From NCBI GenBank assembly GCA_947184155.2, contig CAMXCT020006576.1, positions 12,501 to 76,500 on the forward strand: 64,000 bases of DNA. Reading direction: 5' to 3'. Of the stretch, positions 4,686 to 60,986 are shown piece after piece. Source of the DNA: Cladocopium goreaui (Eukaryota; Sar; Dinophyceae; Suessiales; Symbiodiniaceae). The stretch's first letter is position 1, and every line of letters starts with the position of its first letter. The notes below the pieces were generated by a model that was given only the letters and a program-made list of their open reading frames with translations, made no database searches and was not told where the DNA came from. The translations under genes were made by a program, and so were the position numbers.

Positions 4686-5110
4686 AGAAACATGGATCAT
4701 GGGAAAACATGGGAAATCGTAGGAAAACATGGGAACATTGTCGGAACACATGGGAAAAACATGGAAAAATCATGGGAAATCGTAGGAAAACATGGAAAAA
4801 TTGTCGGAACACATGGGAAAATCATGGAAAAATCATGGGAAATCGTAGGAAAACATGGAAAATCTTTGGGAAAATCGTGGGAAAACATGGAAAATCATGG
4901 GAAAATCGTGGGAAAACATGGAAAATCATGGGAAAATCGTGGGAAAACATGGAAAATCATGGAAACATGGTGGGAAAGTGGTGGGAAAACATGAAAAAAA
5001 CATAGGACATCGTAAGAAAACATAGGAACATCATGGGAAAACATGGGAAATCATGGGACACACTGGAACAGATGGAAAACACACTGGAAATCGTAGGAAA
5101 ATCATGGAAC
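4686..5110. repeat. Purine-rich minisatellite
   Basis: Dozens of short variants of CATGGGAAAATC and GTGGGAAAACATGG. The plus strand is strongly purine-rich and roughly complementary in composition to the pyrimidine array at 3994-4495. Open frames on both strands are repeat artefacts. Confidence 0.85.
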
Positions 5111-5408
5111 ATCCTCCAAAATGAAGATGTTCCAAGTGAAAACAAAAGAAGATCATCAAACAAAAACTCGGAACATCAGCTAAACCAGCTAACCGCCAGA
5201 TGGATTGTGGGGAAGGTGGTGATCATCCTACAAGAACAGTATGATCATCACATGGACATGTCATTGCAACAAAAAAAGTCAGGTTGAAGGAATGAGGATG
5301 CGATTCAGACACCCCAAAGTCGGTCAACACAAGTGGAGCTTTGAACCACATGTTTTGGACCTAGGATTTGACATCTAAGCGTTCAGAACGTGCCAGATGC
5401 AAAGGACT

Positions 5409-5512
5409 TACCCTCTGGTAATTTAACATAACTATGGAAAATCACCATTTTTGATGGGAAAACTCACTATAAATGGCCATTTTCAATAGCTATGTTAAAT
5501 TACCAGAGGGTA
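5409..5512. mobile_element. Family A MITE-like element (complete)
   Basis: Starts TACCCTCTGGTAATTTAAC and ends AAATTACCAGAGGGTA. Its core is almost identical to the copy at 485-588. Confidence 0.85.
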
Positions 5513-14961: not shown

Positions 14962-15042
14962 TGGTGTTTATATTAGTGTTTATATTAGTGTTTATATTAG
15001 TGTTTATATTAGTGTTTATATTAGTGTTTATATTAGTGTTTA
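14962..15042. repeat. 12-bp minisatellite GTTTATATTAGT
   Basis: About six and a half perfect copies of GTTTATATTAGT. Confidence 0.9.
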
Positions 15043-15624
15043 TAGCTTCGCCCCATATTTCCTGAAAGCTAAAGTTTGTAGTTTGTATCTTTGACAAGTG
15101 GTTACAGTTCAAAGGCGTCGGTTCTGATATATATATATATATGTATATAATTATATTATATATATGTGTGTGTATGTATCATTACAAGTGATTGTAACAT
15201 CCCAAGAGTGCCCACACTACGAATGGGAATCCCACGGCCCGTTGGTTTTCCATCACTTTTCCCAAGTCGATCAGCTTGATGTAGATTCCTTCTACAGATG
15301 CTGTTTGGCTCCAACATGTTTCGAGAAAAGCCTAGTTGCCTATAGTATTCAGCTACTTTGGGCTCGCCTATGATTTTGTCACTTGTTTTTTCTGGGTGTG
15401 AACATTTCGATGTAATACTTTATGGTTATTGAAGACATTGGAATGATTGCGAGAATTTTCCATAAATGTCATTAAACGTCCATGTTCCATACTTGTAAGA
15501 CACATTTCAATATTTTAAGGATGTTCTTTTATTATGAAACATGCATGTTGATCTATCTATTTCTACATAAATACTGACTATTCAAAGTATAAGTATAGAT
15601 ATGTCTACATAGTATGGACAGCAT

Positions 15625-15935
15625 TTTATGTATATATATATATACATCTGAGACTCATGTAGTATTGATTATTAATGATTGCAGTTTTACTGTCTACATA
15701 TATATATATATGTTTTACTGTATATATATATATGTATGTATATTATATATATATATATTATGTGTATATATATTATGTATAAATATATATATATATTGTA
15801 TATATATATATATACATGTTTATATATACATAATATATATATATACATATATATATATACACATGTATATTATGTATATATATATATACACATACACATG
15901 TATACATATATATATATATATGTCATTAGTAATTA
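15625..15935. repeat. TA/CATA microsatellite block
   Basis: Long (TA)n interrupted by ATG, CAC and GTA. The Y/I-rich ORFs are artefacts. Confidence 0.9.
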
Positions 15936-16117
15936 GTATATGGCATTCATATCAAACATATATGTATTTATGATCAGTTTTCGACGTTTACTCCGCCAGG
16001 TTCACCCAGCAAGTTGTCTCCTGGCCAAGAGGCGACCCGGCAACTCTGTGGAATTCTGTGGATAAAAAAGGTTGGATTTAACAAAGAAAACCGGAAAACC
16101 ATAGGAGAATGGAGTTT

Positions 16118-16231
16118 TACCCTCTGGTAAACGTTTATATACATAGCTATGGAAAATCCCTATTTTTAATAGGTAAATCCACTATTTCGATGGCCATGTT
16201 CAATAGCTATTTGTATGTTTACCAGTTGGGA
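16118..16231. mobile_element. Family A MITE-like element
   Basis: Ends TACCCTCTGGTAAACGTTTA and ATGTTTACCAGTTGGGA. The right end is mutated. Confidence 0.75.
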
Positions 16232-16629
16232 ACAAAATTGTGAATTGAACATGTTTTCACCAACAAACTGTGATTTTAAGATATATAAAATAGGGATCCA
16301 ACCAAAATCCCATGGGTTATCATCATGTTTCCTGTTAAATTCGGCAATAATTGGGGTATAATTGGGGTTATACACCATTCTCAGATACACCAAAGTTCTC
16401 ATGCTGGGTGAAGTTTCGGATGACGTTTGCTACCGGATTATGAAAGTAGCAAATATCATGTGTATATATATATATATATATGTAGTATGTATATAGTTAT
16501 ATTTATGTAACATGATCAAACATGACTGTATATTTTTAGATATGTAATACATGTAAAATATGACCTTGATCATACAATAATAACATGTATATTTTTATAT
16601 CCAAACAACATTCACACCATCGCTCCTTT

Positions 16630-16792
16630 TTATGGTTTTTCACTCACGACGGTGAGGCTGCAGCCAGCAAGACCTCGAGAGGTATGCGATACTCTTCCGC
16701 AGGCTGGGGAGTTCACCTTCATAGCTATGCAAGAAATTGCCGGTACTGCCGGTAGACCAACAGTGGGGCATGATGAGCTTGAAACACATTGA
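16630..16792 (+). CDS. Candidate exon, unknown product
   Basis: The plus frame reads LTTVRLQPARPREVCDTLPQ, then AGEFTFIAMQEIAGTAGR and PTVGHDELETH, and ends at TGA (16790-16792). Codons show strong coding bias (GCT ATG CAA GAA ATT GCC). The 5' boundary lies somewhere after the AT-rich DNA at 16600. ACA|GTGGGG at about 16762 is an alternative donor, in which case this is an internal exon. The opposing minus ORF looks less natural. Confidence 0.42.
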
Positions 16793-17138
16793 TGCTTGAG
16801 AGGTTCAAAGTTCGCTGCATGTTTGCTGTTCGTCCTAGTTGGCAGTGAAGTCAGCGCAGTGCTCAAGAGCATAGATGTTTGTAGATGGTACCGGGATGTA
16901 GAGTGTTGCATACTGCAAATGACTAACTATATTATATAGTGTGACCTGTGACATACTATATTATATACACGACATATCATGTGTGTTGATTGTGATGCTG
17001 TATGATATCTATTATATTCATATACTCTTACCCTACACACACATGTAATATGTATATATATAATACATAGAGAGAAAAAGGGAGAGATACACAGTCCCTC
17101 TATGTGCCCGTATCTTTGAGACCTTTGGACAGCATCAG

Positions 17139-17241
17139 GGCGCACCTATGAGAAGGGGCAGACCAATGTAGCAACAGCACGGGTCCAAGTAGCCCGCAGA
17201 GTGTCAGAAAATCCGTACTCAGAAGCAGACAAGAAACACAG
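17139..17241 (+). CDS. Exon 1 of a gene with MITE introns
   Basis: AGCATCAG|GG (AG|G acceptor) opens a frame reading TYEKGQTNVATARVQVARR, then VSENPYSEADKKH. It is highly charged, helix-like and clearly coding in codon pattern. The frame runs to CACAG|GA, 6 bp before the family B element at 17247. A GA donor here, or the element's CTG|GT donor at 17250, could end it. The GA choice leaves two bases and matches the next segment. Product unknown. Confidence 0.47.
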
Positions 17242-17246
17242 GAAAT

Positions 17247-17346
17247 CTGGTTGGTGGTTTGGAACATGAATTTTATTTTCCCCAATATTGCGATGATGAT
17301 CCAATCTGACAAATATATTTCAAAGGGGGTTGAAACCACCAACCAG
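17247..17346. mobile_element. Family B MITE-like element sitting as an intron
   Basis: Arms CTGGTTGGTGGTTTGGAAC and GTTGAAACCACCAACCAG. The right end AACCAG is followed at once by the open segment 17347-17395. Confidence 0.85.
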
Positions 17347-17395
17347 AAATGGAATTTCCACACTTTGGCACAGAAAGATAAAGAATTACCCTCTG
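17347..17395 (+). CDS. Exon 2: 49-nt coding segment between two MITEs
   Basis: Lies exactly between the right end of a family B element (ACCAG|) and the donor inside the left end of a family A element (CTCTG|GTAAAC). One base plus 16 codons reads NGISTLWHRKIKNYPL and ends in phase 0. That joins exon 1 in phase if the GA donor is used, and joins exon 3 in phase 0. A second frame (KWNFHTLAQKDKELPS) is also open, so the frame is not certain. Confidence 0.4.
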
Positions 17396-17491
17396 GTAAA
17401 CTAACATAACTATGGAAAATCACCATTTTCAATGGGAAAATCCACTATAAATGGCCATTTTCAATAGCTATTTTGGCATAACCAGAGGGTA
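17387..17491. mobile_element. Family A MITE-like element sitting as an intron
   Basis: Ends TACCCTCTGGTAAACTAAC and GGCATAACCAGAGGGTA. The predicted intron, GTAAAC...ACCAG at 17396-17485, is 90 nt and lies entirely inside the element. Confidence 0.85.
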
Positions 17492-17600
17492 ATAAAGCAG
17501 AATGCCATGGGAGTAGTTGTTTGGCACCCGGTCGAGATTGCCAACCTCCCCAATGTTGGGTCGAATTTTGGCCATGGCCATGACTATTTTAAACATGACA
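17486..17600 (+). CDS. Exon 3 of the MITE-intron gene
   Basis: Begins at the AG in the right end of the family A element (AACCAG|AGGGTA). It reads VIKQNAMGVVVWHPVEIANL, then PNVGSNFGHGHDYFK, with good coding codons, and runs into a family E element whose left end GGGTTTGTCTG offers donors. Sequence past that element (17710-17800) stays open in more than one frame. Function unknown. Confidence 0.45.
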
Positions 17601-17714
17601 TGGGTTTGTCTGAAAATGTTGGGTTAATCTTCCCAATGAAATAGCCATTTAATAGGGATAATGATCAGCAAAACCATTGGGTTTAGGGGTACACTATTTT
17701 CAGACAAACCCACA
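17601..17714. mobile_element. Family E inverted-repeat element
   Basis: Arms TGGGTTTGTCTGAAAATG and ACTATTTTCAGACAAACCCA. The right arm contains CTATTTTCAG, a near-ideal acceptor. Relatives occur at 25542, 40127 and 44143. Confidence 0.75.
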
Positions 17715-17938
17715 TGGGTATATGGAAATCCTGGTTCAATCTGTTTCAATGGAAAATCTCGTCAGTAGTCCCTTTTTGTTGAGGCTTTCTATCCCCTTCC
17801 ATCCCTGATTAAAATCACCACATTGCCAAGGTACTCGGTTCACACGAGTCCTCGCTTCACAACCTGTGGGGGATGCACAGAGACGGGTTTGGGGCGCTCG
17901 GGCTGAAAGATTGTTTCAGACATACCGTGGATGGGCCA

Positions 17939-18037
17939 GCGAAATCCTGCACCAGTTGATAGGTGGCAGCCCCATCCCATTATTTTGGATGGTTTTCAAC
18001 CATCCTTTTGGATCCTTTTCGTGGTGCAGGATTTCGC
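17939..18037. mobile_element. Family D inverted repeat
   Basis: GCGAAATCCTGCACCAG ... GTGGTGCAGGATTTCGC: perfect 13-bp arms with a core containing ATTTTGGATGG. Confidence 0.75.
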
Positions 18038-18394
18038 AACCCACAGCTCAATGATGTTCAATGCCGAGTTGTTGGACACTGTTGTGATTCCAACACAGCT
18101 TGGTGGTTCCAATTTTCACTGACGAACTTCTGCCTTGCTCCTATTGTGCAAAAATGATGTTCAATGAGTTTAATGAATCTACTTGATGAATTAATCTTAA
18201 TAATCTTAACTAGCTGTTTGGCAGTGACAACAAAAATTCCCTTGCCTCAGGAGAATTATCTAGGCAGTGCTTTACACGTGTATATATATATATATTATAT
18301 ATAATATATATATACATACATACATATATATATGTGTGTATTTCAAGAAATGTCGTGATTTGGGGCCAATGCTCAACTGAATATGGCCAGTGAT

Positions 18395-18835
18395 TCATGG
18401 CCAGCAAGTTGCCGGCGGCCAGAAACTTGAGCCCCAATCCTGCAGGACAGCCAGCAAGCCAGTGAAACCAGGTGCGATCAGGGACCCAGATGGTGGTTCA
18501 AATATAGGGTGGACTCCGGGTGGACTCCGGGCGATGGGGATTTCACCCAATAAAAACAGGGATTTCACGAGCAAGAAATGGGTTTCGGAGCATAAAAGGT
18601 CAGGATATTTGGCAAACAGCTGGCGAGCGAAAAATTGGAGCCAACAAACATGAAATGGGAATGCAACTCTAAATTCCAAAGGGACCATGCCCATCGAAAA
18701 TCTCTCAAACTGACCAAAAAACGCTGGTGCAGCCACACAGTCAGATCGGTATGTGCAAGAACCTGAAAGCTGGTGCCCCGCAGTTAGAAGTTGATTTATA
18801 ACGTCCATTATATAAACTATAGATCGATCGCCCAT
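18395..18835 (-). CDS. Long minus-strand ORF, unknown product
   Basis: 146 codons without a stop, ending TGA at 18395-18397. It reads DRSIVYIMDVINQLLTAG, FSMGMVPLEFRVAFPFHVCW and KSLFLLGEIPIARSPPGVHP. It is hydrophobic and aromatic-rich, with no clear signal peptide. The length is unlikely by chance at this base composition. A plus-strand frame (GGQKLEPQSCRTASKPVKPG) overlaps the GC-rich 3' half and is the main alternative. It could be a terminal exon or a complete small gene. Confidence 0.42.
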   Translation of the reverse strand: MGDRSIVYIMDVINQLLTAGHQLSGSCTYRSDCVAAPAFFGQFERFSMGMVPLEFRVAFPFHVCWLQFFARQLFAKYPDLLCSETHFLLVKSLFLLGEIPIARSPPGVHPIFEPPSGSLIAPGFTGLLAVLQDWGSSFWPPATCWP

Positions 18836-19107
18836 TATATAAACTCTATATCAAACACAAACCATAGTTCACTTGGTCGTAAACCAGCTGAGTTTTGGGC
18901 TCGGGCAAAGAATTATAGGACGTTCCCACCACTGGACTGACTAGTGGCTTTGAAATTGATCCCTGTTGGCTTTCATGATTCTTCTGTGTGTTTTGGGGGA
19001 GGATGCCCTGGGTTTGTGATATTGCACCATTAAGTAGAACCCGCTACAAAAATCATCTCTGCCTTGAACTCCCACGTTTTGTGTTGAAGCTCTCTTGGTG
19101 TCTTTAA

Positions 19108-19390
19108 ATGTAGTGATTTAACCATCGTTCACCTTTTTATTCACCACTATTACAGTAACTTAACTATAACCATCATGAAGCCATTGCTAAAACCATTAGT
19201 AACCATTAACATGTTATGAATTTCACATATTTTTTCTTAACCATTGTTAACTAACCATAATTTAACCACTAACATATCTGGTTGGTGGTTTGGAACATTT
19301 GGATTATTTGTCCATCTATTGGGAATAATAATCCCAACTGACGAACTCCATCATTTTTCAGAGGGGTAGGTCAACCACCAACCACCAACC
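19108..19390. repeat. Second copy of the about 285-bp dispersed repeat
   Basis: Matches 8336-8620 with small indels and ends with the family B element at 19278-19390 (CTGGTTGGTGGTTTGGAAC ... ACCACCAACCAACC). Confidence 0.75.
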
Positions 19391-19430
19391 ATGGTTTTTT
19401 TCCCGCTGAGTTCACAATGCTTTTTCACAG

Positions 19431-19536
19431 GCAGCCGCTGCTATCGCAGCTCCAGCTGTAGTTCCAGCCTCGATGGCAACTCCCCGAGGCGCGCTGAAAA
19501 AAAACACAGACGCCGAGTTGTGGCCATCCGAAAAAG
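19431..19536 (+). CDS. Candidate Ala/Pro-rich exon
   Basis: TTTTTCACAG|GCAGCC is a strong acceptor and AAAAAG|GTTAAT a donor. The 106-nt frame reads AAAIAAPAVVPASMATPRG, then LKKNTDAELWPSE. The intron then begins with a GTTAATAGTGG repeat. Low-complexity linker; product unknown. Confidence 0.38.
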
Positions 19537-19898
19537 GTTAATAGTGGTGAATTTTGATGAATAGTGGTTAAGAATGGTTAATACTGGTAATTAATTCAGG
19601 ATGGTATTCAGGGAAAAGGGATGTTTTCACAAGTTTTTAAGCAGTTAACCAATTCATTTTGATTCATTTTGCATATGATTGCATATGAACAAACACAGGC
19701 CGAACTGGCATGAACTGGCCATCCTAAGGTTAATGGTTAATAGTGGTTAATAGTGGTTAATCATGATTAACAATGGTTAATAGTGGCTAATACTGGTGAT
19801 TTATGTGATTACAGTAATAGATATTAATAGTAACGATTACGCCCATTTAGTTCGGAGATTTCCCAGCTAGCCATGTTTGATTGCAGGAGCCTAAGATG

Positions 19899-20062
19899 TT
19901 AACCAGGAGAAAAATGGTACAGGAGGAAAGAAATGGCTTTGTTTGGGAAAATGTTGGTGAACTTTGCGAGTCTTGCTCTCCGTGTAGGTGCGACTGACTT
20001 AAAACACTGGCCAGGATTATCTGTATCCAGCGCAAGATACCGGATCCCATGTGCCACAAGTC
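19899..20062 (-). CDS. Terminal exon of a three-exon minus-strand gene
   Basis: Acceptor TTTCGTCTCAAG|GA. The frame (phase +2 nt) reads LVAHGIRYLALDTDNPGQC, FKSVAPTRRARLAKFTN and IFPNKAISFLLYHFSPG, with stop TAA (19899-19901). The acceptor phase matches the donor phase of the exon at 20139-20185. Codon bias is strong. No family recognised. Confidence 0.58.
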
Positions 20063-20745: not shown

Positions 20746-20904
20746 CTACAGTTCGGGGTTTGCTGCAAGCACAGTGAAAACTCCCAGGCGCGTACGTGGA
20801 GCCTTCGAAAGGGCACACAGCGCCGGGGTCCTCGGGGTCCTCGGTTGTGGGAATGACCAGGGGGCAAGCCTCTACCGTGGCGTCAAAAATGTTGTTTTCA
20901 CCTA

Positions 20905-23402: not shown

Positions 23403-23479
23403 GAAATCCTGCACCACCTTGGATGGTTGAAACCCTTTAAATAATGGGATAAGCCATCTATCAACTGGTGCAGGATTTC
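23403..23479. mobile_element. Family D inverted repeat
   Basis: GAAATCCTGCACCACC ... CTGGTGCAGGATTTC with the ATGGTTGAAA core. Confidence 0.7.
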
Positions 23480-40456: not shown

Positions 40457-40566
40457 GTAAGTTGTATGGAGAGGGTTGGATTTGTGTATTGGTAAACTGG
40501 TTGGTTAATAATGGTTAATAGTGGTTAATAGTGATTAATGGTGATTAATAGTGATTAATGGTGATT

Positions 40567-45540: not shown

Positions 45541-46695
45541 GGGCTAACGCCCTGGTGCCGCCGACCCCCTTTCAAGGGTGCGGATATATACATACACATA
45601 TATATATATATATATATATACATATGATGTTATAATATGCTTATATGGTTTCCGGCTGAGATTTTCACACCTAAACCAATCAATGGAATCATGTAGCACA
45701 AAGCTCCGCAGAATTTGGGGCCACAGCCGGGCGTTGAGCCATGTCGCAGGCTTGAACGCGCTAAAAAACAGAGGGCAGTGGCCTGAGTGCCTGCTCGAAG
45801 CTGCCGCGCAGCGTTGTAGGCATTGGAGGCCTGGCAAACGGCATGCTTGAACGCCCTTAACAACACAGGGCAGTGGCCGGAGTGCCTGCTCGAAGCTGCC
45901 GCGCAGCGTTTTAGGCATTTGAGGCCTGGCAAACGGCAGGCTTAAACGCCCTTAACAACAGAGGGCAGTGGCCTGAGTGCCTGCTCGAAGCTGCCGCGCA
46001 GCGTTTGAGGCATTTGAGGCCTGGCAAACGGCATGCTTGAACGCCCTTAACAACACAGCGCAGTGGCCGGAGTGCCTGCTCGAAGCTGCCGCGCAGCGTT
46101 TGAGGCATTTGAGGCCTGGCAAACGGCAGGCTTGAACGCCCTTAACAACAGAGGGCAGTGGCCTGAGTGCCTGCTCGAAGCTGCCGCGCAGCGTTTGAGG
46201 CATTTGAGGCCTGGCAAACGGCAGGCTTGAACGCCCTTCACAACAGAGGGCAGTGGCCGGAATGCCTGCTCGAAGCTGCCGCGCAGCGTTGTAGGCATTG
46301 GAGGCCTGGCAAACGGCAGGCTTGAACGCCCTTAACAACAGAGAGCAGTGGCCTGAGCGCCTGCTCGAAGCTGCCGCACAGCGTTTGGGCCTGGCAAACG
46401 GCAGGCTTGAACGCCCTTAACAACAGAGGGGCAGTGGCCGGAGTGCCTGCTCGAAGCTGCCGCGCGCTTTTGAAGCATTTGAGGCCTGGCAAACGGCAGG
46501 CTTGAACGCCCTTAACAACAGAGGGCAGTGACCTGAGTGCCTGCTCGAAGCAGGCTTGAACGCCCTTAACAACAGAGGGCAGTGGCCTGAGTGCGTGGCG
46601 GAAGGCAAGGTAGTGGCAAGCCAACAAAAACAGGCTCGACACCTGCGGTGGTCCCAGGCGCCGCCCCTGCCTTGGCGAAGGCCGGGGTCGGCGGA
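45541..46695. repeat. GC-rich 95-bp tandem array inside an inverted repeat
   Basis: About eight or nine copies of a 95-bp unit (phase marker AGTGCCTGCTCGAAGCTGCC at 45786, 45881, 45976, 46071, 46166, 46261, 46356, then 46442 and 46536). The block is enclosed by CCGCCGACCCC (about 45557) and GGGGTCGGCGG (about 46684), and by AT-rich microsatellites outside. Because 95 is not divisible by three, each copy changes frame, so the long minus ORFs are not a protein. Confidence 0.85.
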
Positions 46696-49950: not shown

Positions 49951-50734
49951 CATATGTTATTCATTAGGTCAGGTATTAATCACTAATAACCACTATTAAC
50001 AACTATTAATCACTATTAACCATGGTTATTGCAATGTAAGTATACTTTTGATACCTAAAATGATCACTGGAGATTGGGCCTTGAATTTTCACTGCCGAAA
50101 TATTTCTGACGGATGATTTCACCAGCACAATGCACGGGGGATGTAAACTTCACACATTGGAGGGGGACTCTAAATGGCCAGATGTGAAGATCCTGGACAG
50201 TTGCAGCTGGAAGAAGCCTACTTAAATGACTTGTAACTTGTAACTGTGTTATAACCCACTATACTAAGTGTCGTGAACAACCAAGTGGTATTGTTTTGAC
50301 AGTCATAAATTCATTGAAATCCACAGCAATATGAAGGTCAAGAGCCCAGATGTCTACAACTCATTCAGCGGTTGCAATTCTTTCCTGACAAAACACCATC
50401 AACACCTTCCACAAGCACTATGAGTCCGAAGCCTACCCAAATCAACCAATACACTCAATACACCTAACCTATCCTAACCTCCCCAACATCGATCTGAAGC
50501 CTCCGCAATTGTCTGCAGCCTAGCTTGACCAACTAGTTGCACCCATCATCCATCTGGAATCCATGCAGTAACTTTCCAGATCAACCGATCATAGACCAAG
50601 AAATCATACCGGACTCATGATGTTGATTATCTGATTTGATTTGTTGAATTTATGATTTTCATTGAACTATCATCAACTTATAGTAACTTATTGATACTTA
50701 TCAGTTGACACAAGCCTAATAGCTGTAACAGCGA

Positions 50735-51310
50735 GCACGATCTAGAGCACGATTTTTGGCACGAAGGAGAGCACCAAAAAGCACGATCTAGAGCACGTTT
50801 TTTTGCACAAGGGAAAGCACCAAAAAGCACGATTTTTGGCACGAAGGAGAGCACCAAAAAGCACGATCTAGAGCACGTTTTTTTGCACGAGGGAAAGCAC
50901 CAAAAAGCACGATTTGTGGCACGAAGGAGAGCACGATCTAGCACGGTTTTTGGCACGAAGGGGAGCACCAAAAAGCACGATCTAGAGCACGGTTTTTGGC
51001 ACGAGGGAGAGCACCAGAAAGCACGATTTTTGGCACGAGGGACAACAACAAAAAGCACGATTTTGTGCACGAAGGAGAGCACCAAAAAACACGATCTATA
51101 GCACGATGTTTGGACAAAGAAGAGAAATGCACCAAGGAGAGCACCAAAAAGCACGATTTTGGGCACGAAGGAGAGCACCAAAAAGCACGATTTAGAGCAC
51201 GGTTTTTGGCACGAGGGAGAGCACCAAAAAGCACGATCTAGAGCACGATATTTTGCACGAGGGAAAGCACCGAAAAGCACGATTTTGTGCGCGAAGGAAA
51301 GCACTCAAAA
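50735..51310. repeat. GCACGA-rich minisatellite with internal palindromes
   Basis: Units of about 21 bp (GCACGAAGGAGAGCACCAAAA, AGCACGATCTAGAGCACG), with the palindrome-like GCACGATCTAGAGCAC recurring about six times. The unit size is divisible by three, giving long ORFs on both strands (208 codons on minus, FWCSPSCQKPCSRSCF). This is a repeat artefact unless transcripts show otherwise. Confidence 0.85.
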
Positions 51311-60825: not shown

Positions 60826-60986
60826 AGTGGGGCGGGGACCCCGTGCGGAGATGGCCGAAAACCACTGGTAATTTAACGTGGCTATTGAAAATGGCCATTA
60901 ATGGTTAATAATGGTTAATAGTGATTAATAGTGATTAATAATCATTAATGGTGATTAGTGGTGATTAATGGTGATTGATGGTGATT

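Follow-up and report, generated by a model that had tools for sequence, protein, structure and literature searches.

Clustered MITEs of three families in probably non-coding DNA of Cladocopium goreaui, and a B-like element as an intron in HSP70

The three short elements lying at 17.1-17.7 kb of the Cladocopium goreaui sequence analysed here (64,000 nucleotides, hereafter the window) are best explained as a cluster of ordinary MITEs in non-coding DNA, with one of their families, B, separately able to make introns. A probability of roughly 0.87 is given to this reading. The insertions at the locus were independent, each with its own TSD, and they would be those of three non-autonomous TIR transposons of abundant families. 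Splicing at the locus would be neither needed nor likely, in view of the codon usage, the lack of homologues and the letters of the TSDs. As far as sequence can demonstrate it, B made an intron in HSP70, in one gene and through one insertion event.

All three elements are short, carry TIRs (15 nt for B, 13 nt for A and 17 nt for E) and are bordered on both sides by exact TSDs (Table 1), and each has many copies dispersed in unrelated flanks. The genome copies of E are numerous and 93-99% identical. The first-pass annotation of this DNA, which had described three consecutive DNA-transposon-like MITEs from three families, is confirmed on these points, as it is in placing its second supposed exon exactly between an AG (17345-17346) and a GT (17396-17397). 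A cluster of such MITEs can mimic a split gene because TIRs starting with CTGGT and ending with ACCAG necessarily carry GT and AG.

Table 1. Features of the locus, in window coordinates
Feature	Position	Strand	Remarks
First 'exon' of the first-pass annotation	17139..17241	+	open; codon score 0.02, neutral
Left TSD of B element	17243..17246	.	AAAT, identical to 17347-17350
Family B MITE, 100 bp	17247..17346	+	TIR CTGGTTGGTGG...CCACCAACCAG; inverted repeat, TSD, dispersed copies
Right TSD of B element	17347..17350	.	AAAT
Second 'exon' of the first-pass annotation	17347..17395	+	codon score -0.57, not coding-like
Left TSD of A element	17387..17388	.	TA
Family A MITE, 101 bp	17389..17489	+	TIR CCCTCTGGT...ACCAGAGGG; inverted repeat, TSD; 28 matches in window
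Third 'exon' of the first-pass annotation	17486..17600	+	codon score -0.41, not coding-like
Right TSD of A element	17490..17491	.	TA
Left TSD of E element	17598..17601	.	ACAT
Family E MITE, 110 bp	17602..17711	+	TIR GGGTTTGTCTGAAAAT...ATTTTCAGACAAACCC; inverted repeat, TSD, dispersed copies
Right TSD of E element	17712..17715	.	ACAT

The segments around the elements had been joined into one gene split by three introns. Their phases do fit, the three-segment join being open over 88 codons in one frame, and deleting the elements, each with one of its TSDs, also leaves one frame open over 113 codons across all three sites. Open joins as long as the 88-codon one are not rare, since 4-6% of joins made at random are just as open and the six frames of the window contain 106 ORFs of at least 88 codons. 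At least one of three frames is open in 4.4% of three-piece joins drawn at random from the window (20000 trials), in 5.65% of contiguous window pieces (20000 trials) and in 5.6% of GC-matched joins (5000 trials).

Codon usage was scored with a model built from 625 codons in 13 exon stretches, all belonging to conserved CCT-family chaperonin genes from the same genome; these stretches score from +0.10 to +0.87 bits per codon when left out one by one. The 88-codon join scores -0.30 bits per codon under this model, a value reached or exceeded by 27% of the 106 window ORFs, and the 113-codon pre-insertion frame scores -0.36; as the training set comprises only 625 chaperonin codons, a fast-evolving gene could score low. 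Of the three segments, formerly called coding-like, the second and third do not appear so by their own scores and the first is neutral (Table 1). This neutral score speaks for a gene, as does the GC content of 17100-17246, which at 51% is near that of real exons. No homologue of the joined segments was found up to E 10 in a protein search (one candidate), and no paralogue of the supposed gene appeared among the scored genome matches (40 of 3708 candidates). In the six frames of 15001-19982, no Pfam family reached its cut-off; the sole sub-threshold match, HTH_48 with E 0.063, lies outside 17139-17714, near 17.0 kb and on the minus strand. Codon score, homologue search and Pfam being all negative, the claim of one gene split by three introns is left unsupported, and these tests place none of the three elements in a transcribed coding gene. 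That the whole cluster belongs instead to a single long intron or untranslated part of a real gene that went unrecognised is improbable. Copies of A do occur inside a CCT-family intron and inside an HSP70 B intron, and a copy of E inside an intron of the HSP70 superfamily, but the Pfam search of the surroundings runs against such a gene, as does the scarcity in the window of stretches that are coding-like by codon score, of which 15203-15292 and 20795-20902 are the closest ones listed.

The boundary at which the first segment was thought to be spliced, 17241 or 17250, finds little help in the letters, as 17241 precedes GA and not GT, and the GT at 17250, if used as donor, runs the frame of the first segment into a stop within the second. 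With a GA donor at 17241, 105 nt are cut (17242-17346) where 104 were inserted. GA-AG introns and GC/GA-AG boundaries are mentioned for dinoflagellates in PMC11453091, and the letters at 17241 are compatible with such a boundary. If A is spliced at the GT and AG that it carries (17396-17485), the product is 13 nt longer than the empty site, and the third segment comes into frame as minus 1 for B and plus 13 for A make 12, which is probably a coincidence. The ends of the elements and TSDs do not, with the stop for B and these 13 nt for A, give frame-keeping splice sites. In addition, the AAAT of the B element is without a GC or GT donor as used by the HSP70 B intron described below, and this copy therefore cannot use a donor supplied by the TSD.

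One gene carrying B, A and E as introners, with B removed as a GA-AG intron and A as a GT-AG intron, is thus a very improbable reading: the open join, the open pre-insertion frame and the exact B intron of HSP70 speak for it, but the negative codon score, the lack of a homologue or Pfam family, a TSD offering no donor and a frame that fits only as two errors add up speak against it. The least probable of all is a young lineage-specific gene at 17.1-17.7 kb that was hit successively by three introner families and gained protein sequence from A, a TA-target introner with both splice sites.

The preferred reading, a cluster of ordinary MITEs in non-coding DNA, is supported by the abundance of the families. 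Non-redundant matches in the window, partial ones counted, number 28 for A, 9 for B and 5 for E. The assembly searched comprises 1.17 Gb in 6202 contigs, and a wider sample of 28 sequences (284 kb) was picked around A and E copies, with 6 kb of L009 duplicating the window. Matching 4-bp TSDs are found at 10 of 29 B copies by a strict four-letter test on model-defined ends, and TA at A copies and 4-bp TSDs at E copies were seen by eye in the listed window matches. The family densities give by arithmetic about 0.4 expected B-A pairs within 50 bp per window. Two loci (L002 and L003) carry B then A in the order seen here, with unrelated spacers and flanks, which rules out B and A as a single composite repeat; as the elements are also common, their adjacency is best read as chance. 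The company of A, B and E at the locus is not surprising at the densities of the window. Around CCT exons, the 12 loci read (L035-L046, about 29.7 kb after overlap) hold 4 A sites, 2 of them full and 1 short and weak, compared with about 13 expected by arithmetic at window density, together with 1 weak E site and no copy of B.

TA target duplications are a trait of Tc1/mariner-like MITEs. A is like these in its length of about 101 bp, short TIRs, TA TSD and very many copies, whereas B and E differ from them by TSDs of 4 bp; a place for A in the Tc1/mariner superfamily is only a lead. The window includes other repeats as well. A further TIR family, with ends GCGAAATCCTGCACCA and GAAATCCTGCACCA, occurs at 17939-18037 and 23403-23479. 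At 45746-46551, a 95-bp unit is repeated in tandem (8.6 copies, with 91% matches), and a second tandem array, whose units are related, measure about 34, 46 and 80 bp and are rich in GCACGA and AGCACCAAAA, spans 50734-51283. Tandem repeats of 10 bp (TTAATAGTGA-like) at 40505-40566 and 60897-60986 adjoin A copies at 40566 and 60986.

The capacity of B to make introns comes from HSP70 genes, located with PF00012. In contig C6140 (L047), a 103-bp intron follows SSSTQ and reads CACACAG/GCAA-CTGATTGGTGG...AAATCACCAACCAG/GCCACC, the slashes standing for its two edges. It consists exactly of the TSD GCAA and a B-like element, its match to the B profile covers positions 1-103 (E 7.4e-5, 14 bits), and its joined exons read SSSTQ-ATIEIDSLFEG. 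The GC donor comes from the TSD and the AG acceptor from the end of the element, the right TSD copy now being GCCA. Contigs C1780 (L048) and C301 (L049) have an intron at the same position, of 293 and 294 bp, which shares the left end and contains an A-family match (E 1.7e-8 and 3.4e-7); no B right end is recognisable in these two introns. Four paralogue stretches, two in C677 and one each in C125 and C1107 (L054-L057), display the empty site CACACAGGCAACCATTGA. In this conserved gene the intron thus equals the element together with a single TSD, and the site is empty in relatives, which points to an origin by insertion; the alternative is loss in the empty copies, and gain is favoured because the intron ends fit the TSD and the TIR. 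The intact and conserved reading frame suggests that this intron is spliced. The earlier proposal that these small families are introners thus holds for B, through an exact HSP70 intron with four empty paralogue sites, and not for the present locus. Several near-identical HSP70 exon sets follow one another in C2542:10211-46041, as in a tandem array on one contig. GC donors were also read in the CCT-eta gene (edges by eye).

Such an intron could arise from insertion of a B-like element into an exon at a point where the 4-bp TSD follows AG and has a usable donor as its first letters. The 5' splice site would then come from the TSD and the 3' one from the terminal CCAG of the element, and cutting out TSD and element together would restore the mRNA.

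Copies in coding surroundings were sought by joining 75-bp flanks and retaining joins with an open frame and a codon score of at least 0.10; the counts leave aside L009 copies and those that were incomplete or had short flanks. Joined flanks are coding-like for 0 of 74 A copies, 0 of 29 B copies and 1 of 24 E copies, and for 57 of 3000 random joins. Regardless of score, 27 A, 9 B and 14 E flank joins are open, as are 1364 random ones. In the same test, the three HSP70 B-intron joins score from +0.47 to +0.50 and the B site of the locus -0.31. Genome-wide, 21 B left ends stand at CAG/GY, 3 of them in HSP70, and at 105 others that G is replaced by A, C or T. Splice-ready sites are therefore not enriched, G representing 17% of the 126, no more than its base share (GC 40% in the 284-kb sample). 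Nine of the 18 such ends outside HSP70 were read, and their upstream 72 nt have stops in every forward frame or score -0.14 or less; the right end is recognised in three of these nine, with one open join, at -0.42.

The sole coding-flanked E copy of the 24 (L021:4901-5008) was rejected as an introner, as it lies 38 bp inside a longer intron, read as 4863-5464 (about 600 bp), of an HSP70-superfamily gene with a Pfam match of 4e-7 on the upstream exon; we take this gene to be HSP110-like, and the exon edges are likewise our own reading. The A copy at L039:1332-1436 was rejected in the same way, since it lies inside a CCT-family intron, read by eye as 1245-1509 in a gene that is presumably CCT-zeta, whose donor is about 87 bp and whose acceptor about 73 bp away. 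Repeat-derived introns in CCT-eta were also discarded, none of its 10 inter-exon stretches matching a repeat of the 284-kb sample. In this comparison, four stretches around HSP70 exons gave no match, and the L039 CCT stretch matched A. The parallel working of several introner families suggested by the first-pass annotation was not seen: in the few real genes looked at, copies of A and E lie inside longer introns and are not what sets the splice sites. Among the best 120 relatives of the CCT-eta peptide, the highest-ranking named ones include Ceratium, Togula and Polarella glacialis (71% identity), in keeping with a dinoflagellate host, and the best match reaches 81%. Contigs C1 (7.38 Mb) and C2380 (0.64 Mb), with loci L029-L034, look bacterial, with 60-68% GC and uninterrupted Cpn60 genes, and are probably from associated bacteria in the assembly.

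Here one TIR family is common as a non-genic MITE and in at least one case makes up the body of an intron exactly. To become an intron, a copy needs a TSD that comes after AG and opens with a usable donor, and the filled and empty HSP70 paralogues within one genome provide a direct handle on why most copies stay non-introns.

Introners of dinoflagellates are well described, as in the parts of PMC9860276, PMC11453091, PMC10522408 and PMC10666404 drawn on here. According to the account of Roy et al. 2023 given in PMC11453091, dinoflagellates have short introners with TIRs and many families per genome, whereas one insertion event, of B only, is demonstrated here. For Symbiodinium microadriaticum, the legend of Fig. 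2B in PMC9860276 presents introners with a 4-bp TSD and TIRs, a donor from the TSD, an acceptor from the element and a restored mRNA. Compared with the introners of that legend, B comes from another dinoflagellate and has different ends (CTGRTTGGTGG), most of its sampled copies are not at coding sites, and the copy of the present locus has no such donor. The layout of the HSP70 B intron is like the one in that legend, and B, for whose HSP70 intron no novelty of publication is claimed, is a new introner family of this known kind.
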